This document shows positions 5,348-64,000 of a DNA stretch of 64,000 nucleotides, one piece after another. The stretch comes from Paratractidigestivibacter faecalis. GTDB taxonomy: Bacteria; Actinomycetota; Coriobacteriia; Coriobacteriales; Atopobiaceae. The stretch's first letter is position 1; the number at the start of each line of letters is the position of its first letter. The notes under the pieces are model-generated. The model saw only the letters and a list, made by a program, of their open reading frames with translations. It searched no databases and was not told where the DNA came from. The DNA lies in assembly GCF_003416765.1 (NCBI RefSeq), contig NZ_QSNG01000001.1, positions 1,204,742 to 1,268,741 on the forward strand, written 5' to 3'. The translations under genes and the position numbers were made by a program.

Positions 5348-5385
5348 AAAAAAGGCCGGGCCCGGCAGAAAGCCAGGACCCGACC
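5348..5385 (-). terminator. Rho-independent terminator of pyrG
   Basis: On the minus strand a 10-bp GC-rich stem with two G-U pairs (5385-5376 with 5363-5354) is followed directly by six T (5353-5348). It sits 35 bases beyond the pyrG stop. Confidence 0.85.
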
Positions 5386-5419
5386 CAAACGTTACCTCAT
5401 TCCGGCGCTCCGGGAAGCC

Positions 5420-7117
<1,698 letters not shown>

Positions 7118-33449: not shown

Positions 33450-34361
33450 CTACGCCGCAAGGGACTGTCTCCGGAACTCCTCCGGGGTCAGTCCCTTCAG
33501 TTTAACCTGGCGCCTCCTCGTGTTCCAATGGACCACGAAGTCGTCGAGGTCCGCCTTGAAGGACTCGAAGTCCGGCCACGTCCTTCCACGGAAGAACTCG
33601 TCCTTGATGTGGCCGAACACCTGCTCCGTCGCGCCGTTGTCGATGCAGTTGCCCTTCCGGGACATGCTCTGCACCACGCCGGCCTCCTCCAACCGCCTGC
33701 ACCAACCGGCCTGCTGGTACTGCCAGCCCATGTCCGAGTGCAGGATCGGCCTGGAGCCCTTGGGCTTCTTGGACACGAGCTGGTCGAGCAGCTCGTGCTG
33801 CTGAGCCATGTTGGGGTGCAGCGACGTGGACCAGGCGACGATCTCCTTGCTGCCGAAGTCGTAGACCGGCGCGAAGTAGGCCTTGCCCCAGGGCTGCTTG
33901 AACTCGGTGACGTCGGTGCCCATCTTTTCCCACGGCCCGTCGGCGGCGAAGTCCCTGCCGATGACGTTCTCGAAGGTCTTTCCGACCTTGCCCCTGTACG
34001 AGTTGTACCTGTGGTAGTCGGTCTCGCGGCGGATCCCGCAGCTGATGCCCATCTCGCGCATCATCTTCAGCGTCGTCTTGTAGGCTATGCGCACGCCCTG
34101 CTCGGCGCGCAGGCACATGGCGATCTGCCTGTGGCCGCACCCGTTGGCGGTGCGCGAGAATATCTCGGCGGCGGCCTCCCAGAGCTCGGGCCTGGTGGGA
34201 GCCTTCGGGTGCGACAGCGCGTAGTAGTAGCTGGACCGGGCCATGCCGGCGCACTCCAGCAGGCGCCCCAGCCCGTGCCCCTCTTCGCGCAGGACCCTCA
34301 CGGCCTCGACCTTCGCCCTGGTCAGAGCCCGTCCCTCTCGACCAGGGCACGCAATTTTTTT
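33450..34361 (-). CDS. IS3 family transposase OrfB (catalytic, made by -1 frameshift)
   Basis: Read from the A7 slippery site (minus strand, 34361-34355) in the -1 frame. It has an HTH_21-type region (RVLREEGHGLGRLLECAGMARSSYYYAL) and the retroviral-integrase (rve) core: first Asp in MGTDVTEFKQPWG, second in LHSDMGWQYQQ, Glu in NGATEQVFGHIKDEFF. The end VKLKGLTPEEFRRQSL is typical. The complete DDE triad and intact frame indicate an active element. Confidence 0.92.
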   Translation of the reverse strand, partial: KKIACPGREGRALTRAKVEAVRVLREEGHGLGRLLECAGMARSSYYYALSHPKAPTRPELWEAAAEIFSRTANGCGHRQIAMCLRAEQGVRIAYKTTLKMMREMGISCGIRRETDYHRYNSYRGKVGKTFENVIGRDFAADGPWEKMGTDVTEFKQPWGKAYFAPVYDFGSKEIVAWSTSLHPNMAQQHELLDQLVSKKPKGSRPILHSDMGWQYQQAGWCRRLEEAGVVQSMSRKGNCIDNGATEQVFGHIKDEFFRGRTWPDFESFKADLDDFVVHWNTRRRQVKLKGLTPEEFRRQSLAA

Positions 34362-34813
34362 AGGTAGGCCACCTCGGTCTCGAGCCTTCGGCAGCGCTCC
34401 TCGAGCTCCTCCTCGCGGGTCCGCGGCCTCGCCTTGGAACCGCTCGGCCGGCCCTTGGGCCTCGGGCGCAGGGCCTCCGCGCCGCCCCGGCGGTATAGCG
34501 CGCACCACTTCTTGAGCGGCGACATCGACATTATGCCGAACGCCGCCATCGCCTCGGCCTTCGTCATGCCGCCGTCGACCACGGCGGAGGCTGCGGCGAC
34601 CTTCTGCTCGTATGCGTACCTGGCCTGCTTGCCGTCCATGGATAGCAGCACCCCGCTTCCGAACGACCGGTATACGCAGAGCCATTGTCTCACGGTTCCG
34701 CGCGGGACCGACAGCGCCTTCGCCGCAGACTTGTAGCCGTTGCCTCGCTCGAAGAGCCCGATCGCCGCCTTCCTGGCCTCGATGTCGTGCTTCACCCTCA
34801 AGTCGACACGCAT
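34322..34813 (-). CDS. IS3 family transposase OrfA
   Basis: 163 residues from the ATG at 34813 (GGGAGGC upstream). Two helix-turn-helix-like segments (AAIGLFERGNGYKSAAKALSVPRGTVRQWL and KAEAMAAFGIMSMSPLKKWCALYRRGG) precede a leucine-zipper-like end (REEELEERCRRLETEVAYLKKLRAL). It binds the IS ends. The A7 run near its 3' end allows a -1 shift into orfB. Confidence 0.92.
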   Translation of the reverse strand: MRVDLRVKHDIEARKAAIGLFERGNGYKSAAKALSVPRGTVRQWLCVYRSFGSGVLLSMDGKQARYAYEQKVAAASAVVDGGMTKAEAMAAFGIMSMSPLKKWCALYRRGGAEALRPRPKGRPSGSKARPRTREEELEERCRRLETEVAYLKKLRALVERDGL

Positions 34814-46797: not shown

Positions 46798-47436
46798 TCA
46801 CATGCGGTCGGGGCGGACCCGCCCGCCATCAACCGTCCACAGCACCGGGGCGGGCAGCGCGGCGGCCTCCGCCTCGGAGTGAGTCACCCAGAAGACGGTC
46901 TTTCCGGCCAGGCGCGGCAGGAGCCAGGCCATGGTGGCCCGGGAGCTCCCCTCGTCGAGCCCGCGCAGAGGCTCGTCGAGAAACACAACGTCAGAGGTGG
47001 AAAGCGCCGCCCGCAGCAGGCTCACGCGGCGACGCTGGCCACCGGAGAGCTCGCCCGCGCGGGCAGACTCCAGGCCGGCCATGCCCACCGCGACCAGGGC
47101 GCGGCGCGTCTCGTCCAGCAGCCGTGCCCGCTCGGGGCCGCCCACGCGCCCGTGGGGCAGGCGCACGTTGGCGGAGACGGTAAGGGAGTCCAACAGCCTG
47201 TCCTCCTGGAAGGCCGCCGCAAGCCGGGCGCCCTCGGGCCGCCTGACGCCGCCTGAGGCGGGCTCGACGAGGCCCATGAGCAGGCGCAGCAGCGTGGTCT
47301 TGCCTGCACCCGAGGCACCGCGCACCACGTGGACGCGGCCTTTGGCAAAGTCGGCGCTGACGTGCGAGAGGACGTCCTTCTCGCCCAGGCGGACGGTGAC
47401 GTCTGCCAGGGAGTATGCGGGTGCGCTCGCGCTCAC
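46798..47436 (-). CDS. ABC transporter ATP-binding protein (SsuB/TauB-like)
   Basis: 212 residues from a GTG at 47436 (GGGAGG upstream). Walker A GASGAGKTTLLRLLMG, Q-loop FQEDRLLDSLTVSANVRL, signature LSGGQRRRVSLLRAAL, Walker B VVFLDEPLRGLD and WVTHSEAEA. The QEDRLL motif is typical of the nitrate/sulfonate/taurine/thiamine-precursor class of importers. It overlaps the permease stop by 4 bases and powers it. Confidence 0.93.
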   Translation of the reverse strand: MSASAPAYSLADVTVRLGEKDVLSHVSADFAKGRVHVVRGASGAGKTTLLRLLMGLVEPASGGVRRPEGARLAAAFQEDRLLDSLTVSANVRLPHGRVGGPERARLLDETRRALVAVGMAGLESARAGELSGGQRRRVSLLRAALSTSDVVFLDEPLRGLDEGSSRATMAWLLPRLAGKTVFWVTHSEAEAAALPAPVLWTVDGGRVRPDRM

Positions 47437-48221
47437 GGGCGGGCCTCCCAACGGGCCTGCGCCCAGTCCAGAAGGCGCCCGAGCAGGGCCTCGAGCCCCA
47501 CGGAGAGGGCGACGACGACGACCGTCCACGCAAGGAGGCCGGGCACGTCAAGGTAGACCTTGGCGTCGTAGAGGTGGATGCCTATGGAGGGCGCCGGCAG
47601 GCCGATGACCTCGGCCGCAACGCCACTCTTCCAAGAGAGGCCCATGGCCAGCGAGAGGCCCGCGCGCAGGTAGGGGGCCACCTGCGCGGCGTAGATGGTG
47701 CAGGCGCGCGCCCAGCCGCGGACGCCAAAGACGTCGGCCATCTCGAGCAGGGCGGGGTCGGTCTGCCGCACGCCCGCGAGCACGTTGGTGTACAGGATCG
47801 GAAAGGCCATCAGGAACGAGACCGCCACCGAGAGCCGGCGCGACGGCACCCACATGAGCAGCAGCACCACGAAGGAGGCCACGGGGGCCGCCTTGACGGC
47901 GCCAACCAACGGGGCGAGAAGCCCCTCCACCACGCGGGACCTACTCGCCCACGCGGCAAGGGCCACTCCGGCCGCGACCGCCAGGCCAAAGCCGGCGGCG
48001 ACGCGCCCCAGCGAGAGGCCCACGGAGACCCAGAAGTCCCCCTGGCAGACGAGCTCCGCCAGCCGGCACGCCACCTCGGCGGGGCCCACCAGCACTATGC
48101 GCGAGCCCACCGCCATGCTCGCCAGCTGCCAGGCGGCGAACCAGAAGGCGGCCACGGCGAGGCGGCGGAGCCACGGGCGGACGCCCTTCTCGCCTGATGT
48201 GTCCTTTGCGGCGCCGGCCAA
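47433..48221 (-). CDS. ABC transporter permease (SsuC/TauC-like)
   Basis: 262 residues from a TTG at 48221 (AGGGG upstream). About six membrane segments. The coupling motif is EMADVFGVRGWARACTIYAAQVAPYLRAGLSLAMGLSWKSGVAAEVIG, shared with nitrate, sulfonate and HMP importers. It is 9 bases after the binding-protein gene in the order binding protein, permease, ATPase. Confidence 0.92.
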   Translation of the reverse strand: MAGAAKDTSGEKGVRPWLRRLAVAAFWFAAWQLASMAVGSRIVLVGPAEVACRLAELVCQGDFWVSVGLSLGRVAAGFGLAVAAGVALAAWASRSRVVEGLLAPLVGAVKAAPVASFVVLLLMWVPSRRLSVAVSFLMAFPILYTNVLAGVRQTDPALLEMADVFGVRGWARACTIYAAQVAPYLRAGLSLAMGLSWKSGVAAEVIGLPAPSIGIHLYDAKVYLDVPGLLAWTVVVVALSVGLEALLGRLLDWAQARWEARP

Positions 48222-48230
48222 CGCGGGCCC

Positions 48231-49268
48231 CTAGGCGCCGTAGTAGAAGTCGTCGCCGGGAAGGGAGCCGCCCACGGCCTGGGCGTTCTGGCCGAAGAGG
48301 ATCTCGAGGTAGCCGGAGAGCTGGTCCTTCATGTCCTGGCCGGCAACGAAGGTGATGTTGCAGGCCGGCAGGGCCTTTGCCGCCACGGCCTCGGGCACGA
48401 TGTCGTAGCCGGCCACCAGCTTGGCGGCCTCGTCCACGTTGCCGTTGACGTACTCAACGGACTCGCGGTAGTGGCTCAGGAAGGCGTCAACGGCCTCGGG
48501 GTGAGCGTCGGCGAACTCGGAGCGCGCCACGGCCACGCCGGTGATGAGGCGGGCCTTCTGGCCGGCGGCCTCGCAGGCGGACTCCCACTCGCGGTTGAGG
48601 TCCAGGGCCACGCGGATCTTGTCGTTCTTGGCCTGGGCCGTGGTCACGAAGGGCTGGGGCAGCATGGCCACGGCGTCCGCGCCCTCGGCCAGGGCGGCCA
48701 CGCACTCGGCGTGCTCGCTCTTCCACTCGATGGTGACGTCGGAGTCGGGGTCAAGGCCCGCCTGGCGCAGCACGTACTCCAGCGCGTACTGGGGCGTGGC
48801 GCCCTTGCCGGCGGAGTAGATGGTGCGTCCGCGCAGGTCGGAGACGGTCTTGACCTCGTCTCCCAGCTCGCAGACGTAGAGCACGCCCAGCGTGTTGACG
48901 GCGATGACGTGCACGCCGCCCTCGGTCTTGTTGTAGAGCACGCTCGCGAGGTTTGCCGGCACGGCGGCCACGTCCACCTCGGACTTTGCAATGAGCGGGG
49001 TGACCTCGTCGGCGGAGGCCAGGATCTGGAACGACCAGTCCTCGTCGGCCAGGTTGCCGGCGTCGGCCTCGCCCATGAAGCGCACCAGGCCCATGGCCGT
49101 CGGGCCCTTGAGGGCGGCGGTGCGGACGGCGACGGGCTCCGCGGCTGTGGCGGCGTCGCCCTGCGCGGGAGCGGCGTCATCCTGGGCGGGCGCGGAGCCG
49201 CAGCCGGCAAGGCCGATCGCAGTGCCGCCCAGGGCCGCTGCCTGCAGGAACTCTCTTCTATTCAGCAT
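48231..49268 (-). CDS. ABC transporter substrate-binding lipoprotein (SsuA/THI5-like)
   Basis: 345 residues from the ATG at 49268. The N-terminus has a Tat motif and lipobox (NRREFLQAAALGGTAIGLAGC, Cys23), so export folded and then lipid anchoring is expected. The body is NMT1/THI5-like: TAALKGPTAMGLVRFM, EVDVAAVPANLASVLYNKT, VSDLRGRTIYSAGKGATPQYALEYVLRQAG and DAVAMLPQPFVTTA. Ligand could be a sulfonate, a thiamine precursor or similar; not decidable here. First gene of the importer operon. Confidence 0.92.
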   Translation of the reverse strand: MLNRREFLQAAALGGTAIGLAGCGSAPAQDDAAPAQGDAATAAEPVAVRTAALKGPTAMGLVRFMGEADAGNLADEDWSFQILASADEVTPLIAKSEVDVAAVPANLASVLYNKTEGGVHVIAVNTLGVLYVCELGDEVKTVSDLRGRTIYSAGKGATPQYALEYVLRQAGLDPDSDVTIEWKSEHAECVAALAEGADAVAMLPQPFVTTAQAKNDKIRVALDLNREWESACEAAGQKARLITGVAVARSEFADAHPEAVDAFLSHYRESVEYVNGNVDEAAKLVAGYDIVPEAVAAKALPACNITFVAGQDMKDQLSGYLEILFGQNAQAVGGSLPGDDFYYGA

Positions 49269-50355: not shown

Positions 50356-52827
50356 CTACGCCACGGGCTTGGTGAGCGGGGCGACCTTGTAGGTCTTCAC
50401 GCGCTCGTCGTCGATGACGCCACTCCAGTTGAGGCCGTATGCGAAGTCGTAGGTGTTGCCCTCGGCGTCCACGTAGCAGTCCATGTCGCGGGAGGCGTCC
50501 TCGAGCTGGGTCTCGACGGCCACCATGTCCTTGGGCATCTGCATGGGCAGGAGTCCCGAAGGCTCGTCCTGGCCGGCGACGATACGACAGGCCGCCTCAG
50601 TGGAGCCGGACATGGAGACCAGGATGGCGTCGACCTCGGACTCGAACTCGTGCACGCACATGGGCTGCGTGATGTCGAGAATGACGACACAGGGCTTGCC
50701 GGCCTCCTTGGCCAGGGCCGCCGCCTCGAGGATCTGGTCGAGCTGACCCTCGTTAGTGATCTGGGAGGTCTTGCCAAAGTAGCTGCGGTTCTCGATGGCG
50801 ACGCCCTTGGCGGTCTCGTGGTCTGCCCAGCAGCTGCCGTCAGCGGGGTCGCCGGCAAGGGAAGCCTTGCGCACGACGTCGGCGTCGGCCGTGTAGGGGC
50901 GGTACTGCACGGACAGCGGCACGTAGTCGCCGGCCTCGGTGCGCGCGGCGCGCGGGGAGGCGTTGTTGGGGGCGGCGGCGCAGACAAGAACCAGGTCGCA
51001 GTCGGCGATGTCGGCCGCGGTCAGGCGGGTGAGGTCGGCCTCGGCGGGCGTGGCGTTGCCCTTGTCGTCGGCGGGGCCGGTCAGGGCGTCGGCCAGCGTG
51101 TCGGTCACCACGTCGAAGTACTTCTCGAGCGTGCCCTTGGAGAGCGGCAGCCCGCAGGTGGCCGCGGAGTCCTTCCAGGGAGCGGTGTCCATTGTGCCGG
51201 CCTTGCGGGAGGCGGCGACAAAGCGCATGGGCACGTAGGCCTTGGGCTTGTCGGAGCCGGCCGCCTTCTTGATGACGCCACCGGCGTTCTTGAGCATGAC
51301 GATGCCCTTGACCTGGGCGTCCAGGGCGGCGGCGGCCACCCCGTCGTTGCCCTTGTCAATGTCGGACTTGGCCGCGTCGGGGTCGACGTAGGGGTCCTCG
51401 AAGATGCCCGTGTTGAAGTAGCCCAGCAGCAGGCGCTTTGCGGAGGCGCGGAAGTTCTCGGTGGCCTTCTCCTCGCCGAGCTCGGCCTTCATGTCCTCGA
51501 AGGCGGAGACCAGCAGGGTGGGGTCGTTGCAGCCGCCCATCTGGTCGACGCCGACCGAGACGGCCTTGGAAGCGCGCTTGGCGGGCGTCCAGTCGCCGCC
51601 CTCGACGCCCCAGCAGCGGTAGGACTTGGCGCCGTCGGGCTGGACGTCGTTCAGGACGGCCCAGTCGGTGCAGGCGGAGCCGGCAAAGCCGAACTTCTCG
51701 CGCAGGAGCTCCTGGACCTTGTACTTGGAGAAGCCCGAGCCCACGAGCTCGCCGTACTTCATGTCCTCGTCGTAGGCAATGGTGTAGGAGGTCATGATGG
51801 CCGCGGCGCTGCCCGTCTTGCCGTCGAGCTTGAAGGCGCCGTCCACGAAGGGGATCATGCAGGCCTCAAAGCCGTCGGACGGGTAGACGGCGTACTTGCC
51901 GCCCTCGGTGTGGGCCTCGCGACCGCCCTCGCCCGGCCCCTCGGCCGGCCAGTGCTTGACCATGGAGACCAGCGAGCCGGTGCCCCAGCCCTGGTCCTCG
52001 CCCTTCTCGTCGACGGTGGACTGCAGGCCGTCGACGAGTGCGCGGGTCATGTCGCGGGACAGCGCCGGGTCCTCGCCGAAGGTGCCGCTAAAGCGCTGCC
52101 AGCGCGGGTCGGTGGCGACGTCCACCTGGGGCCCGAGGAACGTGGTGACGCCCATCTCGCGCATCTCGCGAGCGATGCCGGCGCCGGTCTGCTTGGCCAC
52201 GGCGGGGTCGAAGGTCGCCGCAAGGGCCAGGTTGCCCGGCCAGTCGGTGCAGTTCTTGCCGTTGCGCGGGTCAGACGAGAAGTTCACGGGAATCTTGTTG
52301 CCGGACGCCTCAACGTAGGCCTGCATGAGGTTTGACCAGGTTGCCTGGCGATACGCGGCGTAGCCGGAAGCGGCGTTCAGGACGGCGCGGACGTTACCGT
52401 CAAGGAACTCCTTCTGGACGTCGGTCACGGAGTTGTCGTCCTCGAGCGTGAACACGTGCGCGGAGAAGCACATGAGGCCCGCGATCTGCTCGATCGTGAG
52501 GCGGCCGGCCAGGTCGTCGGCGCGCTCCTCGGCGGTGAGACGCCAGTCCTCGTAGGGGACGAGCTCGCCCGTGCCCTCGAAGTCCTTGAACGCGTAGCCA
52601 TCCTTCTCGATGAGCTTGAGGCCGGAGTCCGGAGAGTAGCTCAGCTGCTTGCCGTCGCCGTTATCGACGATGGTGTAGCCGTTGCCGGAGTCGGTCTCCT
52701 TGTAGCCGGAGCCCTTGGCGGCGCCGTCGGTGCCGTCGGCCGCATTGCAGCCCGCCAGGCCCAGAAGGCCCGCGGCGAGCGCGCCCCCTGCGACGAAGCC
52801 CCTTCTGGTGACGCTCTTCCCAGTCAT
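50356..52827 (-). CDS. GH3 family glycoside hydrolase, Tat-exported lipoprotein (module 1)
   Basis: 823 residues. The signal VTRRGFVAGGALAAGLLGLAGC gives a twin-arginine motif and a lipobox (Cys27). A short segment with a degenerate EF-hand-like loop (FKDFEGTGELVPYEDWR) leads to the GH3 TIM barrel, with ADDLAGRLTIEQIAGLM, the KHW of SMVKHWPAEG, and the likely nucleophile Asp388 in CTDWAVL. The C-terminal GH3_C sandwich contains KGIVMLKNAGGVIKK. A fibronectin-like end is not obvious. Probable extracellular beta-glycosidase; substrate unknown. It lies downstream of an RR-HK pair read in the same direction. Confidence 0.9.
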   Translation of the reverse strand: MTGKSVTRRGFVAGGALAAGLLGLAGCNAADGTDGAAKGSGYKETDSGNGYTIVDNGDGKQLSYSPDSGLKLIEKDGYAFKDFEGTGELVPYEDWRLTAEERADDLAGRLTIEQIAGLMCFSAHVFTLEDDNSVTDVQKEFLDGNVRAVLNAASGYAAYRQATWSNLMQAYVEASGNKIPVNFSSDPRNGKNCTDWPGNLALAATFDPAVAKQTGAGIAREMREMGVTTFLGPQVDVATDPRWQRFSGTFGEDPALSRDMTRALVDGLQSTVDEKGEDQGWGTGSLVSMVKHWPAEGPGEGGREAHTEGGKYAVYPSDGFEACMIPFVDGAFKLDGKTGSAAAIMTSYTIAYDEDMKYGELVGSGFSKYKVQELLREKFGFAGSACTDWAVLNDVQPDGAKSYRCWGVEGGDWTPAKRASKAVSVGVDQMGGCNDPTLLVSAFEDMKAELGEEKATENFRASAKRLLLGYFNTGIFEDPYVDPDAAKSDIDKGNDGVAAAALDAQVKGIVMLKNAGGVIKKAAGSDKPKAYVPMRFVAASRKAGTMDTAPWKDSAATCGLPLSKGTLEKYFDVVTDTLADALTGPADDKGNATPAEADLTRLTAADIADCDLVLVCAAAPNNASPRAARTEAGDYVPLSVQYRPYTADADVVRKASLAGDPADGSCWADHETAKGVAIENRSYFGKTSQITNEGQLDQILEAAALAKEAGKPCVVILDITQPMCVHEFESEVDAILVSMSGSTEAACRIVAGQDEPSGLLPMQMPKDMVAVETQLEDASRDMDCYVDAEGNTYDFAYGLNWSGVIDDERVKTYKVAPLTKPVA

Positions 52828-52913
52828 GCTTGACCCCTTTCACCATGGGTTTTTGTGGGTGTATCCCCTTGGCTGGCATCCTACGGGAGCAAAGGCTGCC
52901 GCCGCCATGGCGC

Positions 52914-52961
52914 TTTCACGGTCTGCGGGCTGGGTTTCACGGATTGCGGGAGGGTTGCGGG
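52914..52961 (-). promoter_or_regulatory. Phased CCGTGAAA repeats and shared motif upstream of GH3 gene 1
   Basis: On the minus strand CCGTGAAA occurs twice with starts 21 bases apart (plus-strand TTTCACGG at 52914 and 52935), the spacing of LytTR/AgrA direct-repeat sites. Next to it lies CCCGCAAC, six bases, GCAATC (52961-52942), a motif also found upstream of the second GH3 gene. It is a candidate target of the adjacent response regulator. Confidence 0.45.
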
Positions 52962-53004
52962 GCCGGCGCCGCTCGCCGCCCGGAAGCCGCCGCTCGGCGC
53001 AGGG

Positions 53005-54300
53005 CTACTCAAACGGCAGCAGCACCGTCAGCGAGAAGCGCCCGTCGGCGGGCTCCAGGGTCAGGTTGCCGCCGTGGCGCCGCGCGATGTCGCGGATGCT
53101 GCGCAGGCCGAAGCCGTGGTAGTCGGGGTCATCCTTGGACGTCACCGGCAGGCCGTCCTCCCCCAGCGTCACCTGTCCCATGCAGGAGTTCTCCACGCAG
53201 AGAAACGCCAGGCCGCCGCGCGACCACGCGCGCACGGAGACCACCCGGGCCTCCCACGAGGGGACCTTCTCGGCAGCCTCTATGGCGTTGTCCAGGGCGT
53301 TTCCCAAAAGGGTGTAGAGGTCGACCACGCCCAGACCGGCCAGGCAGCCGCCATCCACCATGCACGAGAAGTCGATGCCGCGGCTCCAGCAGCGGGTGCT
53401 CTTCTCGGTGAGGATGGCGTCCACGGCCGGATCTCCCGAGTGCACGGAGGCGTCGTAGGCCTCGATGGAGTGCTCGAGCTCGGCCAGGCACCTCTCGCGG
53501 AGCTCGCCGCCCTCCATCTGGCGCAGGGCCGCTATCTGGTGCTTGAGGTCGTGGAACTTGACGTTGACTACCTCGACGCTCTCCTGCCCCTCGCGCTGCT
53601 GGCGCTCACGCAGGCGGAAGAGGCGCCGCTCGAGGTCGCGCTCGCGCTCCATCGAGGAAATCTGGAAGGCGCCGAACTGCACCATGAGCAGCAGCACGTA
53701 GCACATGACGCTGCACACGGCGTAGGGGCCGGTCTGCAGGCCGTCCACGCGCACCCAGGTAGAGAGCACGTTGACCACGAGGTGCGTGATCAGCACGAAG
53801 ACCAGCAGAAAGGCGTTGTTGACGTCGGGCTGGCGGTCCTTTCCGTAGCGGGCCGAGAGGACCAGGAGCACGGCGAGAAGCACCAGCGCGCAGCAGCACC
53901 CACAGGCGATCTTGCCGGAAACCACGTCGAGCTGCGGCAGACCGGGAAAGTAACTCCTTGCGTTTCTTATGACGAAGAGGATGCCCTCAACCGAGTAGCC
54001 GGCCGCGCCGTAGAACAGGGCCGTCTGCAGGGGCACGTCAAAGAGGGCCCAGATCACGGCGACCGAGGCGGCAAAGATGAGGGTCGCCCGCGGGGAGACG
54101 AGCCACGTGCCGACGACGGGCACGACCAGCAGGTGCGAGTTGAAGAGTGCCACGTAGACCGGGATGGCCACGGCGGCCCTGGCCAAAAAGCGCGGGCGAC
54201 GGGGCAGGTTGGGCAGGCAGAACGTGAGCTCGGAGGCAAGCAGCACGGTGGTGAAGCACACCAGGGTGGCCCAGACCTCGTGGAGAAGCGCGGCGTCCAT
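53005..54300 (-). CDS. AgrC-like GHKL sensor histidine kinase (module 1)
   Basis: 431 residues. Six or so membrane segments in residues 1-215 form the sensor. A coiled linker (SSMERERDLERRLFRLRERQQREG) leads to the phosphoacceptor His in VKFHDLKHQIAAL. The GHKL ATPase has the N-box LLGNALDNAIEAAEKV and G-box GFGLRSIRDIARRHGG. It starts 2 bases after the response-regulator stop. The ligand is unknown; no AgrD/AgrB-like peptide genes are nearby, so it may sense a sugar product or other small molecule. Confidence 0.92.
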   Translation of the reverse strand: MDAALLHEVWATLVCFTTVLLASELTFCLPNLPRRPRFLARAAVAIPVYVALFNSHLLVVPVVGTWLVSPRATLIFAASVAVIWALFDVPLQTALFYGAAGYSVEGILFVIRNARSYFPGLPQLDVVSGKIACGCCCALVLLAVLLVLSARYGKDRQPDVNNAFLLVFVLITHLVVNVLSTWVRVDGLQTGPYAVCSVMCYVLLLMVQFGAFQISSMERERDLERRLFRLRERQQREGQESVEVVNVKFHDLKHQIAALRQMEGGELRERCLAELEHSIEAYDASVHSGDPAVDAILTEKSTRCWSRGIDFSCMVDGGCLAGLGVVDLYTLLGNALDNAIEAAEKVPSWEARVVSVRAWSRGGLAFLCVENSCMGQVTLGEDGLPVTSKDDPDYHGFGLRSIRDIARRHGGNLTLEPADGRFSLTVLLPFE

Positions 54301-54301
54301 G

Positions 54302-55006
54302 CTACCTCCCCATGGAGCGCGTGAGGGCGTCCACGAAGTCGCGCGACTTGCCGCGACTCATCTTGAGGCTCTCCTCCCCCATGCGCACGTACTCGCCGGA
54401 AAGGCCGGTCACGTGGTCGAGGTTCACCAGGTAGCAGGCGTTGCAGGCGGCAAAGCCCCGGGGGCCCAGCTCGGCCGTTGCGGCCTTCATGGTGCCCCAG
54501 ATCTCGATGGGGCCGCGCGCGGTGTGGTAGGTCAGCTTGTGGCCGCGCACCTCGACGTAGAGGATGTCCGCGGCGTCCATGCGCACGAAGCCGTCCCTGG
54601 TCTCAAGGGTGACCAGGTCGCGGCGGCGGGAGCGCACGGCCTCGAGCACCCGTTTGAACTTGAAGGCAAAGACCGGGTACTCCACCGGCTTGACGACGAA
54701 GTCGAAGGCGCCGACCTCGTAGCCGCGGATGGCGTACTGTGCCATGTTGGTCACGAAAACGATCTGTGCGCCGACGCCGCGGCGGCGCAGCTCGTGGGCG
54801 GCGTCCATGCCGTCCACCTGGGCCATCTCTATGTCCAGAAGGATGACGTCATGGCAGCTGGCGGCAGCCGCGTCCAGAAGCTCCGAGCCGTCCGCGTACT
54901 CATGGACGCAGACGCGCTCGCCCTCCTGCGCGCAGAAGCGCCGGACCATCTGCCCCAGCTCGGCGCGCACGTCCTCCTCGTCGTCGACGATGGCAACGTC
55001 AAGCAT
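54302..55006 (-). CDS. LytTR family response regulator (module 1)
   Basis: 234 residues. Receiver domain with DDEED acidic pocket, phospho-Asp58 in VILLDIEM, Thr-like switch VTNMAQYAIRGYEVGAFDFVVKP with the conserved Lys. The C-terminal LytTR DNA-binding domain (about 135-230) has ILYVEVRGHKLTYHTARG and FAACNACYLVNLDHVTGL. It heads the leftward chain RR-HK-GH3. Confidence 0.94.
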   Translation of the reverse strand: MLDVAIVDDEEDVRAELGQMVRRFCAQEGERVCVHEYADGSELLDAAAASCHDVILLDIEMAQVDGMDAAHELRRRGVGAQIVFVTNMAQYAIRGYEVGAFDFVVKPVEYPVFAFKFKRVLEAVRSRRRDLVTLETRDGFVRMDAADILYVEVRGHKLTYHTARGPIEIWGTMKAATAELGPRGFAACNACYLVNLDHVTGLSGEYVRMGEESLKMSRGKSRDFVDALTRSMGR

Positions 55007-55078
55007 CGCGACCCCCTTTCGACACGCACAGGATACGCGAAGGTGGCCGCAGACGGCAGGGGCTTCTCGGCAGACACA

Positions 55079-55115
55079 AGAAACGCCGGCCCCGGGGAAG
55101 AGTTCGGGGCCGGCG
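55079..55115 (-). terminator. Terminator of GH3 gene 2
   Basis: Perfect 11-bp arms (55084-55094, 55105-55115) with a 10-base loop and GTTTCTTG after it on the minus strand. Identical to the terminator of GH3 gene 1 over about 47 bases. One GGCGAGAAG lies between it and the stop (55141). Confidence 0.8.
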
Positions 55116-55153
55116 CGTGGTGCCGGGAGTGCTAGACTGGGGCGAGAAGGCCG

Positions 55154-57685
55154 TTACTTGTCGGCCTTGACCTCGGCCTCTGGCTTGGTCAGCGGGGCGG
55201 CCTTGTAGGTCTTGGTGCGCTCGTCATCGATGACGCCGCTCCAGTTGAGGCCGAAGCAGAAGTCGTAGGTGTTGCCGTCGGCGTCGGTGTAGCAGTCCAT
55301 GTCGCGCGGGACGTCCTCGAGTTGGGCCTCGACGGTGTCCATGTCCTTGGGCATCTGGAACTGCAGCAGGCCGGAGGGCTCGACCTCACCGGTGATGATG
55401 CGGGCGTAGCTGTCGGCCGGGATGTTGAAGCCGGAGCCGGAAGGACCGGCGTCGCCCGCCCAGCCCATGAGGATGACGTCGGCGTAGGGCTCGATCTCGG
55501 AGAAGATCATCGGGTGGTCGGCGTCGACAATGAGGATCAGCTTGGCATCGGCCGGCAGCTTGGCCTTGGTGTCGATGACCAGGTCGAGGTCGCTCTCGTT
55601 GGTAGCGTGCGTGGACTTGCCGTAGTAGCTGCGGTTCTCCATGGCAACGCCGGACTCGGTGCCGTGCTCCGCCCAAGTCTTGCCATCGGCGGGGTCGCCG
55701 GCAAGGGAGACCTGGCGCACGTTGGGGCCATCTGCAGTGTACGGACGGTACTGCAGGGAGATGGGCACGTAGGTGATGGTGTCGCCAGCCTGGGCGCCAA
55801 AGATGCCCGTCGCGCCCTCGACGCCGTCGTAGGCGTCCTGCGGGTTCTTGACCTTGATGATGGCGTACTTGACGTCGGCGAGGTCCTCGGCAGTGGCGCG
55901 GGCGATGTCGCCCTCCTGGTACTGGGCCTCGGTCTCGCCCTCAAGCGGAACGCCAGAGGGGTCGCCCACGGTGTCGGTCACGACATCAAAGTGCTCGGCC
56001 GCGACCTGGGCGTCGAAGCAGGAGGCGATGCTGGCCGGCGTGGTGCCCGTGAAGCCGGAGGAGCTGGGCGTGAAGACCTGCGGGATGTAGACCTTGGGCT
56101 TGTCGGAGATGCCGCCCTTGGCGATGACGTTGCCCGCGTTCTTCAGCATGATGACGCACTTGTCGTTGCACTCGGAGGCGAACTTGGCGGCCGCGTCGCT
56201 GGTGAAGATCGCCTTGGCCGTGTCACGGCTGGAGAACGGCTGGTCGAAGAGCTGGGTGTGGACCATCAGCTTGAAGATGCGTCGGGCGGACTCGCGCACG
56301 CGCTCCAGGGCGGCGTCCTCGCCCATGTCCTTCTTCATGTCCTCGTAGACGGGATAGCCGACCTCGTCGGGCTCGAAACCGCCGCCGTACTGGTCGATGG
56401 AGCCGTCGACCATCATGCGGTAGCGCTCCTGCTCCGTCATGTTCTCGGTGCCGCGGCCGGAGGTGATGATGCCCCAGTCGGTGGTGTACATGCCATCCCA
56501 GCCGGCGTTGCGCAGGATGGAGAGCTGGATCTTGTTGAGGCCGCCGCCCACGCGCTCGCCATACTCGGCGTCCTCGGAGAACGGGATGCCGTAGTTGGGC
56601 ATCACGGCCGCCATCTGCTCGGTCTTGGAGTCGAGCTTCATGCCGCCGTCAAGGAACGGGATGAGGTGAGCCTGGTAGTTGTCGCCGGGGAAGACATCGA
56701 ACTTGCCGGTGTCGCCGTGGTCGTTGCGGCCACCCTCGATGGCGCCGGCGCCCACGAAGTGCTTGAGCATGGTGGCAACGGAGTCCTTGCCCCAGCCCTG
56801 GTCGTCGGTGGCGTCGTCGTCGCCCCAGGTGGACTGCATGCCGCCGGCGAAGGCGCGGGCGAAGTCGCGGGCAAGGGCCGGGTCCTCGGTCTCGGCGCCG
56901 TTCAGGCGGGCGACCGTCGGGTCGGTGTAGAGGTCGATCTGGGGACCAAGCTCGCAGCGGACGCCAATGGAGCTCCAGGCGCGTCCGATCCACATGCCCG
57001 CCTTGCGCCAGAGGTCCTTGTCCATGGCGGGGGCCAGGCCGACGGTGGAGGGAATGCCCAGCGTGGCGTACGGGTCAACGGAGCAGATGTACGGGATGCC
57101 GTGCGGGCGCTGCTCGCACTTGGTCTGGATGTTGTTGATCCAGGCGATGACGGTGGCGTAGGAGTCGCCATCGCCGCCCAGGCGAGAAACGCCTGCGCAG
57201 GAGCCCTTGTCAAGCAGGCTCGTGTCGTTGGCGTCGACCTTGGAACCGGGCCTATCCGCGACGCCCTGGACGCCGCCGTGCCACATGAGCTGGATGCACT
57301 CCTCGCCGGTGAGCTGGCTCGCGAGGTCCGCGGCGCGGTCGTCGGCGCTCTGGCGCCAGTCCTCAAAGAGGCTAAGCTTGCCGTCGCCGTCCATGTCGCG
57401 GAAGGCGTAGCCGTCAACCTGGATGATGCGGGCCTCGTCGGCGACGCCCAGCGTGGCGCCTCCGTCGTTGTTGGTCACGCGCGTCCAGCCGTCGCGGACC
57501 TCCTCGCTGGACCACTTGGCCTCGGTGCCCTCCTTGTCGGGCTCGATGGGATACTTGTCGGCGGCGGGAGCGGCAAGCGGGTCGGCAGCTCCGGTGGCGG
57601 CGCCATTGGCGCTGCAGCCGGCAAGGCCCACCAGTCCCGCGGTCAGCGCGGAACCTGCGATGAATCCCCTGCGTGAGACGTTCAT
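55154..57685 (-). CDS. GH3 family glycoside hydrolase, Tat-exported lipoprotein (module 2)
   Basis: 843 residues from the ATG at 57685 (GGAAGGGAAGAG upstream). The signal MNVSRRGFIAGSALTAG has the twin arginine, with lipobox Cys24. An intact EF-hand-like loop (FRDMDGDGKLSLFEDWR) precedes the GH3 barrel, with the KHF of TMLKHFVGAGAIEGG and the likely nucleophile Asp403 in YTTDWGIITSG. The GH3_C sandwich has CVIMLKNAGNVIAKGG, and the ends of both GH3 proteins (DRDMDCYTDADGNTYDFCFGLNWSGV here) are closely alike. Divergent from an RR-HK pair. Extracellular glycosidase of unknown substrate. Confidence 0.9.
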   Translation of the reverse strand: MNVSRRGFIAGSALTAGLVGLAGCSANGAATGAADPLAAPAADKYPIEPDKEGTEAKWSSEEVRDGWTRVTNNDGGATLGVADEARIIQVDGYAFRDMDGDGKLSLFEDWRQSADDRAADLASQLTGEECIQLMWHGGVQGVADRPGSKVDANDTSLLDKGSCAGVSRLGGDGDSYATVIAWINNIQTKCEQRPHGIPYICSVDPYATLGIPSTVGLAPAMDKDLWRKAGMWIGRAWSSIGVRCELGPQIDLYTDPTVARLNGAETEDPALARDFARAFAGGMQSTWGDDDATDDQGWGKDSVATMLKHFVGAGAIEGGRNDHGDTGKFDVFPGDNYQAHLIPFLDGGMKLDSKTEQMAAVMPNYGIPFSEDAEYGERVGGGLNKIQLSILRNAGWDGMYTTDWGIITSGRGTENMTEQERYRMMVDGSIDQYGGGFEPDEVGYPVYEDMKKDMGEDAALERVRESARRIFKLMVHTQLFDQPFSSRDTAKAIFTSDAAAKFASECNDKCVIMLKNAGNVIAKGGISDKPKVYIPQVFTPSSSGFTGTTPASIASCFDAQVAAEHFDVVTDTVGDPSGVPLEGETEAQYQEGDIARATAEDLADVKYAIIKVKNPQDAYDGVEGATGIFGAQAGDTITYVPISLQYRPYTADGPNVRQVSLAGDPADGKTWAEHGTESGVAMENRSYYGKSTHATNESDLDLVIDTKAKLPADAKLILIVDADHPMIFSEIEPYADVILMGWAGDAGPSGSGFNIPADSYARIITGEVEPSGLLQFQMPKDMDTVEAQLEDVPRDMDCYTDADGNTYDFCFGLNWSGVIDDERTKTYKAAPLTKPEAEVKADK

Positions 57686-57746
57686 GAGCTCTTCCCTTCC
57701 TCGTTGTTCCAACCCGGCGGGATGCCGGGCCTCTTCTTGGCGCCAA

Positions 57747-57804
57747 GATTGCCGCGGCGTTGCGGGACGGAGAAAATCCTGTCGCGAATCGCTACTCTCG
57801 CGAC
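57747..57804. promoter_or_regulatory. Shared GH3 motif and palindrome upstream of GH3 gene 2
   Basis: GATTGC, six bases, GTTGCGGG (57747-57766) repeats the motif found before GH3 gene 1 with the same internal spacing. Beside it, GTCGCGA (57781-57787) and TCGCGAC (57798-57804) form a 7-bp inverted repeat. Either could be the binding site of the divergent response regulator. Confidence 0.4.
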
Positions 57805-57809
57805 CCGAA

Positions 57810-57840
57810 CGTACTTCTCGCCAGACGGGCGAGAAGTACG
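57810..57840. repeat. 13-bp perfect hairpin made of two 9-mer motifs in a divergent promoter region
   Basis: CGTACTTCTCGCC (57810-57822) and its exact complement (57828-57840) enclose AGACG. Unlike most such pairs it is between two divergent starts, where a terminator is not expected, so an operator or a general DNA signal is more likely. Confidence 0.7.
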
Positions 57841-57860
57841 GCCGCGAGCGGCAACGGATG

Positions 57861-57890
57861 TTGGAACAGGGGCCCTGACCTCGCTATCAT
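57861..57890 (+). promoter_or_regulatory. Promoter of the module 2 regulator
   Basis: TTGGAA (57861-57866) and TATCAT (57885-57890) are spaced 18 bases, 34 bases before the GTG of the response regulator. Confidence 0.5.
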
Positions 57891-57923
57891 TTGGGTTGGC
57901 ACGCAGGGGAAGAGGGAGGACGC

Positions 57924-58634
57924 GTGACTAGCCTTCTGATTGTGGAGGACGAGAGGGACGCCGCCGAGGCGCTTCTCGCCCTCGTGCGGCGCTACGAGGC
58001 CGCGCGAAACGTGACGTTTGACGTGGACGTGGTAGGCGCCGCGTTCGAGCTCCTGGACGCGTCGCGCACCTACGACATCTGCCTTCTGGACATCCAGCTG
58101 CCGGGCATCAACGGCATGGAGGCGGCCGAGCTGCTGCGCTCGCAGCACCGCGTGACCAGCATCATCTTTGTGACGGACCTGGCGCAGTACGCCGTGCGCG
58201 GCTACGAGGTGGACGCCCTGGGCTTTCTGGTGAAGCCCGCCACCTTCGCGGGCCTCTCAATGAACCTTGACCGCGCCATGCGCGAGGTGGCCCAGGGGAC
58301 TAACCGCACGCTCACGGTGCCCACCGGCGACGGCTTCAGGTCGGTCCCGCTCTCGCAGGTCACCCACATAGAGGTGCGCAACCACGACCTCGTCTACCAC
58401 ACCGTGGACGGGGAGGCCCTGCGTGCGCGCGGATCTCTGGCCCAGGTGGAGCGCGAGCTGGCGGACGCCCCGATGGTGCGCGTCTCTCGCTATTGCCTGG
58501 CAAACATGGCGCTCATCACCGGCGTGGCCGGAGACGAGGTCACCGTGGCGGGCGGCACGGCGCTCCACATCACGCGCGGCCACAAGAAGGAGATCGAGCT
58601 CGCCCTGGCCCGCTACCTGGGAGGCCGGAGATGA
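57924..58634 (+). CDS. LytTR family response regulator (module 2)
   Basis: 236 residues from a GTG at 57924 (GGGAGG upstream). Receiver with EDERD pocket, phospho-Asp56 in ICLLDIQLPG, VTDLAQYAVRGYEVDALGFLVKP; LytTR domain with VTHIEVRNHDLVYHTVDG and VSRYCLANMALITGV. It is about as similar to the module 1 regulator as paralogues usually are. Stop overlaps the kinase start as ATGA. Confidence 0.94.
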   Translation: MTSLLIVEDERDAAEALLALVRRYEAARNVTFDVDVVGAAFELLDASRTYDICLLDIQLPGINGMEAAELLRSQHRVTSIIFVTDLAQYAVRGYEVDALGFLVKPATFAGLSMNLDRAMREVAQGTNRTLTVPTGDGFRSVPLSQVTHIEVRNHDLVYHTVDGEALRARGSLAQVERELADAPMVRVSRYCLANMALITGVAGDEVTVAGGTALHITRGHKKEIELALARYLGGRR

Positions 58635-59935
58635 TGGGCCCGAACGCGTTTCGCTTCGCGCTGTCCATGATGCTGCAGCTGGCGGCCTGCGCCGTGCCCC
58701 TATGCGCCCACCTTGAGCGACGCGGCGACACGGCCGTGCGAGGCCTTCTGGCCGTCGGCGTGTTCCTGGCAGGCGAGCTCTTGCAGGAGCCCCTGCGCCA
58801 GAGCGTGCTGGGATCGAATCTGCCCATCCTCATGCTGACCTTCGGTATCACGCTCTTCTCCACGTGCGTGGCGGTGCTGCTGGTGTGGCGGATCTCGTTC
58901 TGGCAGTCGCTTTTCTGCGCCACGGCGGCCTACATAGGCCAGAACCTCATGAGCGGAACGGCCAACCTCATTGAGTCGATTGTGGAGCTGGGCCTGTTCC
59001 CAGGCCACCCCTGGCCGACGAACCTCCTCATTGCCGCGGCCATTGTCTACCCGTTCTACCTGCTGCTCTTTGTGCGGCAGATTCGCCGGCACAACCTGGC
59101 CGACATCAGCGAGCCACAGATCGTCCTGGTGGCGCTGGCCGTGGTGGCCACGGTCATCGGGCTTGACGTGGTGGTCAAGAGCCTGGGCGTGCGCGTCTTC
59201 GGGCTTGAGACCTACCTCATGGCGCGCCTGGCCCACGGCGTGCTGTGCGCCTTCACGCTCTACGCCGAGCAGAAGATCCTGGCGGCGCGCCAGCTTGCCA
59301 CCGAACGCGAGGTGGAGCGGCGCATGGCGGCCGAGCGCGAGCGCCAGTACCAGCTCAGCCGCAAGAACATCGACGCCATCAACGTGAAGTGCCACGACAT
59401 CAAGCACCAGATCCGCTCTCTGGCGGACGGTGGGCGCGTGGCCAACGGGCGGGCGCTGGAGGACCTGGCGGCAGAGATCGCCATCTACGACTCCACGGTC
59501 AAGACCGGAAACCCGGCCCTGGACGTCATCCTCACCGAGAAGGGCCTGGTCTGCTCAGGCGAGAAGATTACGCTGTCCGTCATTGCGGACGGCCGTGCGC
59601 TGGAGTGCCTGGAGCCGCAGGAGATCTACTCGCTCTTTGGAAACGCGCTGGACAACGCCATAGAGGCGGTGCGCGGAATCGGGGAGCCGGAGCGGCGCCT
59701 GGTCTCGCTCAACGTGCGGCGCTCCGGCACCATGTGCGTCATCAACGTCGAGAACAGCTGCGACGTGGCGCCCGCCTTCAGGGACGGCCTGCCCGTCACC
59801 ACCAAGGCTGACGCCGGCAACCACGGCTTTGGGACGCGCAGCATGAGGGGCATCGTCGAGCGGCACGGCGGGGTCCTCACGATGGGGTGCGAGGACGGAA
59901 TCTTCCACGTGGACGCCCTGCTACCGGTGGCGTGA
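58631..59935 (+). CDS. AgrC-like GHKL sensor histidine kinase (module 2)
   Basis: 434 residues from the ATG at 58631. Membrane sensor domain in residues 1-220; a coiled linker (LATEREVERRMAAERERQYQLS); phosphoacceptor His in VKCHDIKHQIRSL; N-box LFGNALDNAIEAVRGI; G-box HGFGTRSMRGIVERHGG. The kinase half resembles module 1 closely (TGNPALDVILTEKGLVCSGEKI here against SGDPAVDAILTEKSTRCWSRGI), while the membrane halves differ, so the two may sense different signals. Confidence 0.92.
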   Translation: MMGPNAFRFALSMMLQLAACAVPLCAHLERRGDTAVRGLLAVGVFLAGELLQEPLRQSVLGSNLPILMLTFGITLFSTCVAVLLVWRISFWQSLFCATAAYIGQNLMSGTANLIESIVELGLFPGHPWPTNLLIAAAIVYPFYLLLFVRQIRRHNLADISEPQIVLVALAVVATVIGLDVVVKSLGVRVFGLETYLMARLAHGVLCAFTLYAEQKILAARQLATEREVERRMAAERERQYQLSRKNIDAINVKCHDIKHQIRSLADGGRVANGRALEDLAAEIAIYDSTVKTGNPALDVILTEKGLVCSGEKITLSVIADGRALECLEPQEIYSLFGNALDNAIEAVRGIGEPERRLVSLNVRRSGTMCVINVENSCDVAPAFRDGLPVTTKADAGNHGFGTRSMRGIVERHGGVLTMGCEDGIFHVDALLPVA

Positions 59936-62757: not shown

Positions 62758-63669
62758 CTACGCCGCAAGGGACTGTCTCCGGAACTCCTCCGGGGTCAGT
62801 CCCTTCAGTTTAACCTGGCGCCTCCTCGTGTTCCAATGGACCACGAAGTCGTCGAGGTCCGCCTTGAAGGACTCGAAGTCCGGCCACGTCCTTCCACGGA
62901 AGAACTCGTCCTTGATGTGGCCGAACACCTGCTCCGTCGCGCCGTTGTCGATGCAGTTGCCCTTCCGGGACATGCTCTGCACCACGCCGGCCTCCTCCAA
63001 CCGCCTGCACCAACCGGCCTGCTGGTACTGCCAGCCCATGTCCGAGTGCAGGATCGGCCTGGAGCCCTTGGGCTTCTTGGACACGAGCTGGTCGAGCAGC
63101 TCGTGCTGCTGAGCCATGTTGGGGTGCAGCGACGTGGACCAGGCGACGATCTCCTTGCTGCCGAAGTCGTAGACCGGCGCGAAGTAGGCCTTGCCCCAGG
63201 GCTGCTTGAACTCGGTGACGTCGGTGCCCATCTTTTCCCACGGCCCGTCGGCGGCGAAGTCCCTGCCGATGACGTTCTCGAAGGTCTTTCCGACCTTGCC
63301 CCTGTACGAGTTGTACCTGTGGTAGTCGGTCTCGCGGCGGATCCCGCAGCTGATGCCCATCTCGCGCATCATCTTCAGCGTCGTCTTGTAGGCTATGCGC
63401 ACGCCCTGCTCGGCGCGCAGGCACATGGCGATCTGCCTGTGGCCGCACCCGTTGGCGGTGCGCGAGAATATCTCGGCGGCGGCCTCCCAGAGCTCGGGCC
63501 TGGTGGGAGCCTTCGGGTGCGACAGCGCGTAGTAGTAGCTGGACCGGGCCATGCCGGCGCACTCCAGCAGGCGCCCCAGCCCGTGCCCCTCTTCGCGCAG
63601 GACCCTCACGGCCTCGACCTTCGCCCTGGTCAGAGCCCGTCCCTCTCGACCAGGGCACGCAATTTTTTT
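62758..63669 (-). CDS. IS3 family transposase OrfB, second copy
   Basis: Read in the -1 frame from the A7 run (63669-63663 on the minus strand). Sequence appears identical to the OrfB at 33450-34361, with the same intact DDE residues. Confidence 0.92.
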   Translation of the reverse strand, partial: KKIACPGREGRALTRAKVEAVRVLREEGHGLGRLLECAGMARSSYYYALSHPKAPTRPELWEAAAEIFSRTANGCGHRQIAMCLRAEQGVRIAYKTTLKMMREMGISCGIRRETDYHRYNSYRGKVGKTFENVIGRDFAADGPWEKMGTDVTEFKQPWGKAYFAPVYDFGSKEIVAWSTSLHPNMAQQHELLDQLVSKKPKGSRPILHSDMGWQYQQAGWCRRLEEAGVVQSMSRKGNCIDNGATEQVFGHIKDEFFRGRTWPDFESFKADLDDFVVHWNTRRRQVKLKGLTPEEFRRQSLAA

Positions 63670-64000
63670 AGGTAGGCCACCTCGGTCTCGAGCCTTCGGC
63701 AGCGCTCCTCGAGCTCCTCCTCGCGGGTCCGCGGCCTCGCCTTGGAACCGCTCGGCCGGCCCTTGGGCCTCGGGCGCAGGGCCTCCGCGCCGCCCCGGCG
63801 GTATAGCGCGCACCACTTCTTGAGCGGCGACATCGACATTATGCCGAACGCCGCCATCGCCTCGGCCTTCGTCATGCCGCCGTCGACCACGGCGGAGGCT
63901 GCGGCGACCTTCTGCTCGTATGTGTACCTGGCCTGCTTGCCGTCCATGGATAGCAGCACCCCGCTTCCGAACGACCGGTATACGCAGAGCCATTGTCTCA
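63630..64000 (-). CDS. IS3 family transposase OrfA, second copy, N-terminus outside window
   Basis: C-terminal three quarters of OrfA as in copy 1; one residue differs (Tyr-Thr-Tyr against Tyr-Ala-Tyr). The start, expected near 64121, is beyond the window. Confidence 0.9.
   Translation of the reverse strand, partial: RQWLCVYRSFGSGVLLSMDGKQARYTYEQKVAAASAVVDGGMTKAEAMAAFGIMSMSPLKKWCALYRRGGAEALRPRPKGRPSGSKARPRTREEELEERCRRLETEVAYLKKLRALVERDGL

Follow-up and report, generated by a model that had tools for sequence, protein, structure and literature searches.

AgrC/AgrA-type pairs, in which a membrane histidine kinase is partnered by a response regulator, are a known design for peptide sensing, that is, for quorum sensing. 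What, then, do two such pairs do beside genes for secreted glycosidases of family GH3? The question is raised by a 64,000-nucleotide stretch of the Paratractidigestivibacter faecalis genome (assembly GCF_003416765.1, contig NZ_QSNG01000001.1, positions 1,204,742 to 1,268,741), which we call the window and to which coordinates refer unless a locus is named. Two modules in it each combine a GH3 gene with a GHKL-family histidine kinase (HK) and a LytTR response regulator (RR). We propose that each module is probably a dedicated AgrC/AgrA-type transcriptional switch for its surface glycosidase or glycosidases.

Module 1 is read from the minus strand in the order RR1-HK1-GH3-1 (55006 to 50356). RR1 (54302..55006) joins a receiver domain, with its phosphorylated Asp conserved, to a LytTR DNA-binding domain (PF00072 and PF04397); HK1 (53005..54300) is an AgrC-type GHKL kinase (PF14501) with the H-box KFHDLKHQI, and GH3-1 occupies 50356..52827. 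In module 2, GH3-2 (55154..57685, minus strand) diverges from the plus-strand genes RR2 (57924..58634; PF00072 and PF04397) and HK2 (58631..59935; PF14501, AgrC-type, H-box KCHDIKHQIR), which together run from 57924 to 59935. An earlier note on this DNA, made from its letters, had drawn two such sets of GH3, LytTR and GHKL genes; open reading frames and Pfam domains confirm all six, with exact coordinates and orientation.

The GH3 catalytic domain PF00933 was detected in both enzymes (E=3.5e-31 in the 823-residue GH3-1, 3.3e-13 in the 843-residue GH3-2), whereas the C-terminal domain PF01915, detected in GH3-1, falls below the Pfam cut-off in GH3-2. Both proteins start with a twin-arginine (Tat) motif followed by a lipobox (TRRGF...LAGC in GH3-1, SRRGF...LAGC in GH3-2), read by eye from the sequence itself without a predictor, and with these signals they should be surface lipoproteins. 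The nucleophile Asp (D388), in a TDW motif, is invariant across the six paralogues of the GH3-1/GH3-2 subfamily in the genome. By sequence over the catalytic domain, the PDB relatives closest to GH3-1 are the beta-glucosidase 9ul7 and SN243. As members of the GH3 family, GH3-1 and GH3-2 would be expected to take terminal sugars off outside the cell.

Linkage of GH3 genes to Agr-type pairs

The P. faecalis genome encodes nine LytTR domains and eight strong GHKL (PF14501) kinases. One LytTR regulator was set aside for want of a strong GHKL neighbour, which left eight LytTR/GHKL pairs. All eight flank secreted GH3 genes, and their modules include 10 of the 14 GH3 genes that the genome encodes. 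The enzymes are of two kinds: lipoprotein GH3s (GH3a) and reversed-order GH3s (GH3r), in which the C-terminal domain comes first. GH3r proteins begin with a membrane helix or a Tat-like signal and end with a C-terminal membrane segment, as judged by eye and hydropathy. The window accounts for two pairs, with one GH3a each and no GH3r in either module. Three pairs form a second cluster (loci L010 and L011) with four GH3a and one reversed-order GH3; two pairs in L015 accompany reversed GH3s; and one pair, in L014, adjoins a single frame of 2314 amino acids (L014:2365-9309) that holds two reversed-order GH3 units and an internal membrane helix. Modules are found in tandem clusters, and the eight pairs are partly paralogous and therefore do not represent eight independent events.

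The closest relatives by protein are Olsenella, Thermophilibacter and Tractidigestivibacter, which places the organism in the Atopobiaceae and agrees, for the class, with the Coriobacteriia named in the earlier note. We surveyed seven other Atopobiaceae genomes for GHKL kinases scoring at least 60 bits (n=24). Twenty-two of them lie beside a GH3 gene: 21 are at most 4.3 kb from a GH3 catalytic domain, and the 22nd adjoins a GH3 that is truncated where its contig ends (L131). The two unlinked kinases (L129 and L130) share the H-box RHDYHNH, of the classical AgrC type, and have the lowest scores. Most GH3-linked kinases carry the H-box HD(I/L)(K/R)HQ. Other H-boxes are also GH3-linked, namely RHEVKNQ (L128, and the L014 kinase next to the double GH3r), RHDLLNH (L049), RHDMQAH (L065) and RHELKNN (L056). 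Since several H-box types and kinase lineages are involved, the link with GH3 probably arose more than once. In the relative G104, one GH3a beside a pair is itself broken across several frames and is probably a pseudogene (L121:9168-11562).

The same layout occurs in Clostridia, for example as GH3r-HK-RR / GH3a-GH3r in L030, L034 and L138. In five Clostridial genomes, picked for having such a locus, a GH3 is found no more than 5 kb from 22 of the 32 strong GHKL kinases, one of these 22 belonging to an ordinary agr locus with AgrB. By comparison, none of 14 strong kinases has a GH3 neighbour in five further genomes, sampled evenly from the order of one of the picked Clostridial genomes. GH3 linkage is therefore no general trait of such kinases but a mark of certain genomes and certain kinase lineages. 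Recurrence of the GH3-RR-HK arrangement in other genomes, the lack of which the earlier note had said would refute its proposal, is found both in the Atopobiaceae relatives and in Clostridia. A GH3 also lies near an AgrB-bearing locus of one Clostridium (L137); on inspection we took this to be a normal agr system whose GH3 neighbour is unrelated to it. Among Bacteroidota, in Tangfeifania and Draconibacterium, a related GH3 is immediately preceded on its own strand by a weak LytTR match (L037:9473-9956 and L047:4001-4429), which may be an independent case of the linkage.

Many Atopobiaceae modules, though not those of the window, are accompanied by a small lipoprotein (about 155 amino acids) that has no Pfam match. 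It is found at L011:2406-2879 and 5361-5846, and also in L017, L022, L043, L069, L117, L120 and L122-L124, and it repeatedly adjoins GH3a genes, including at loci without RR and HK. Its model suggests a barrel of eight strands, similar to those of lipocalin-like and protease-inhibitor lipoproteins (Foldseek 4gzv, E=1.8e-4; VIA Z 8-9, with several families tied).

A Gram-positive polysaccharide utilisation locus would be expected to hold a sugar transporter with its enzyme and regulator, but we recognised none in the gene calls around the modules. Within the window, the transporter closest to them (46798-49268) is of the sulfonate ABC type, judging from its binding protein. No plasmid match was found. 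Two near-alike two-gene IS3-type elements (33450-34639 and 62758-63947) carry the integrase core PF00665/PF13333, with a helix-turn-helix protein in the second copy; one of them lies past module 2.

Direct repeats ahead of some glycosidase genes

The DNA sites of LytTR regulators are direct repeats spaced by some two turns of the helix, with the consensus [TA][AC][CA]GTTN[AG][TG]. We scanned 31 regulator-GH3 regions for repeats with at least 11 of 12 matches at a spacing of 21, using dinucleotide shuffles as the null. Five of the 31 regions contain such LytTR-type repeats, where 0.04 is expected (0 of 200 shuffles); at spacings other than 21, the same regions gave a mean of 0.125 repeat regions. 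A multi-species footprint showed two conserved half-sites, ACGTTYRCCGGCG and ACCGTTTRCCGGCG, at a spacing of 21 bp, with CCGTTTGGCGG as a third beyond them.

In module 1, the gap between HK1 and GH3-1 contains the direct repeat CCGCAATCCGTGAAA / CCGCAGACCGTGAAA (52914..52949, minus strand; 13 of 15 positions identical, spacing 21 bp), about 90 bp upstream of the GH3-1 start. It belongs to the set that is enriched over dinucleotide shuffles and is probably the binding site of RR1. GH3-1 thus probably has its own regulated promoter, though it lies 3' of HK1 on the same strand. RNA structure in this gap has no excess stability (z 0.89). The divergent promoter region between GH3-2 and RR2 (57686..57923) offers a palindrome only: CGTACTTCTCGCC..GGCGAGAAGTACG at 57810-57840 is long and near-perfect, lacks a T-run, and is possibly an operator. 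Where GH3a orthologues have no local RR or HK (L017, L018, L019, L021 and L024), the stretches searched hold no strong repeat either, in keeping with such control. Taken together, the repeated linkage and the repeats ahead of GH3 genes make regulation of the GH3s by the adjoining pairs likely.

Sensor, signal and competing readings

In the AlphaFold2 model of HK2 (mean predicted local distance difference test score, pLDDT, 85.6), seven membrane helices are connected by short loops and no extracytoplasmic domain is predicted. The earlier note had described the membrane halves of the kinases as different and their cores as alike, and the figures agree: HK1 and HK2 share 13% identity over their membrane halves and 44% over their kinase halves. 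Among the paralogues of this genome, membrane halves are 13-29% identical. A seven-membrane-helix LytS-type kinase with a LytTR regulator, BtsS, is reported to bind pyruvate (PMC10653868). As described there, BtsS/BtsR resembles our modules in pairing a seven-helix kinase with a LytTR regulator over a metabolic gene and in binding a small metabolite; it differs in its LytS-type kinase, which governs a pyruvate transporter, and involves no glycosidase. The reported binding would be a precedent for sensing small metabolites through a membrane-embedded domain.

Co-evolution was analysed with distance matrices on 17-18 modules, rather than full trees, and within-genome permutation. Kinase and regulator co-vary (r 0.83-0.90, p <=0.001). 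Neither is congruent with the neighbouring GH3a beyond shuffled pairing over 18 modules (p 0.22-0.32); the 12 GH3a-only modules give p 0.09-0.24. Kinases beside module-1 GH3 orthologues, which are 71-74% identical, have membrane halves at most about 21% identical to that of HK1. In contrast, GH3r distances follow those of both kinase and regulator (r 0.65-0.84, p 0.0004-0.0012), and modules 6 and 7 of our genome each pair with one G122 module in both comparisons. GH3a thus behaves as an exchangeable slot, whereas the tethered GH3r is inherited together with its sensor.

In the switch that we favour, a seven-helix kinase without outer domain would sense a small molecule, probably an amphipathic one, at the membrane. 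Guessing from this topology, the likeliest ligands would be glycosides, their aglycones or other membrane-partitioning compounds of plant or host. Conserved residues and family membership suggest that the kinase would phosphorylate its own LytTR regulator, which may then bind the 21-bp-spaced direct repeats present near GH3 in a subset of modules and would turn transcription on. The GH3 lipoprotein would in turn remove terminal sugars extracellularly, as its family suggests. We infer in this way the transcriptional control of the GH3s, the surface hydrolysis and the class of ligand. The modules would have multiplied by duplication, with GH3a swappable while kinase and regulator stay together, so that the circuit would act as a reusable control cassette for surface GH3s.

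Several points weigh against this proposal. Most individual regions lack a clear 21-bp repeat, and the 57686-57923 region of module 2 has no direct repeat of this spacing. Module-1 GH3 orthologues at five loci (L017, L018, L019, L021 and L024) have no RR or HK in the flanks covered. The genomes under closest survey were for the most part chosen for their GH3a genes: six of the seven Atopobiaceae genomes were picked in this way, which biases the count, although most of the counted pairs were not the cause of the choice. Finally, the ligand class is a guess from the predicted kinase topology.

The earlier note had gone further and proposed a self-sensing loop, in which the surface GH3 would release the very sugar or aglycone to which the kinase beside it responds. 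Enzyme and sensor are indeed neighbours acting at the outer face, and the kinase and regulator lineages track GH3r. However, they do not track GH3a, GH3r is missing from both modules of the window, and the module-1 enzyme has orthologues that occur without a pair. Self-sensing is therefore unsupported for the GH3a enzymes of the window, though it might hold for GH3r, and we consider it unlikely as a general account.

Could the modules serve protection rather than feeding? The kinase would then sense a membrane-active glycoside, saponin-like or similar, which the GH3 would de-glycosylate. Some fungal GH3s detoxify saponins, and both the predicted short-looped kinase without outer domain and the lack of a recognised sugar transporter in the modules would fit such inducible protection. 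Eight paralogous modules per genome, however, would require many different compounds, and this makes the idea improbable.

A further possibility is peptide quorum sensing without AgrB, the kinases reading linear or foreign peptides and the GH3s being ordinary density-regulated exo-enzymes. The cytoplasmic half of HK2 is best matched by AgrC (6e52, Z 16.2, root-mean-square deviation 7.3 over 225 residues), although many kinases score nearly equally and the matches span residues 195-434 only. Like AgrC/AgrA pairs, the modules combine a GHKL kinase whose input half is wholly membrane-embedded, a LytTR regulator and, in a subset of regions that includes module 1, direct repeats at 21 bp, and their membrane halves are as variable as would be expected for specificity. 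They differ in their glycosidase neighbours and in the H-box HD(I/L)(K/R)HQ, which is not of the classical RHD type. Moreover, a profile search found no AgrB (PF04647) in this genome or in the seven other Atopobiaceae genomes, so that the absence which the earlier note had remarked at the locus holds genome-wide. No conserved short peptide gene was seen in the compared intergenic regions apart from the small lipoprotein, no AgrD profile search having been made. Peptide sensing is hence also improbable here.

We give still less credence to GH3r, perhaps together with the small barrel lipoprotein, acting as a co-receptor that reports substrate to an AgrC-like kinase without outer domain; enzyme and sensor would then evolve together, as is seen for GH3r but not for GH3a. 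Mere hitch-hiking, in which one ancestral RR-HK-GH3 block was duplicated and its linkage kept without functional regulation of the neighbour, would suit the paralogy of the pairs and their tandem clusters but is very unlikely given linkage kept despite GH3a swaps, the several kinase lineages involved and the conserved repeats ahead of the enzymes.

Earlier reports and significance of the modules

An association of this kind has been noted before. In Butyrivibrio proteoclasticus B316, three LytTR response regulators are each described near a secreted GH3 with a C-terminal membrane helix, and are said to share a function (Kelly et al. 2010, PMC2914790). The LytTR-secreted GH3 association is the same, and the enzymes there are GH3r-like. 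That description is a single sentence on one Lachnospiraceae genome, set among polysaccharide utilisation loci, and it gives neither the class of kinase nor binding sites nor a survey of the family. The modules described here differ in belonging to Atopobiaceae, in standing alone and in employing lipoprotein GH3a as well as membrane-tethered GH3r. A literature search, with most subscription papers outside its reach, found no functional study or characterised LytTR-GH3 circuit. The statement of the earlier note that no characterised example was known therefore stands as regards function, while the linkage itself had already been seen in Butyrivibrio.

GH3-linked Agr-type modules are real, recurrent and largely uncharacterised. 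Since each regulator adjoins its likely target, inducers should be straightforward to look for. Enzymes of the GH3 family can act on glycosides of plant or host origin and free sugars or aglycones. Agr-type pairs in gut bacteria are usually interpreted as sensors of peptide quorum signals; in Atopobiaceae and certain Clostridia, however, the majority seem to be devoted to GH3 glycosidases of the cell surface. If this is true, many 'Agr-like' annotations in gut genomes would denote a circuit for enzyme control.

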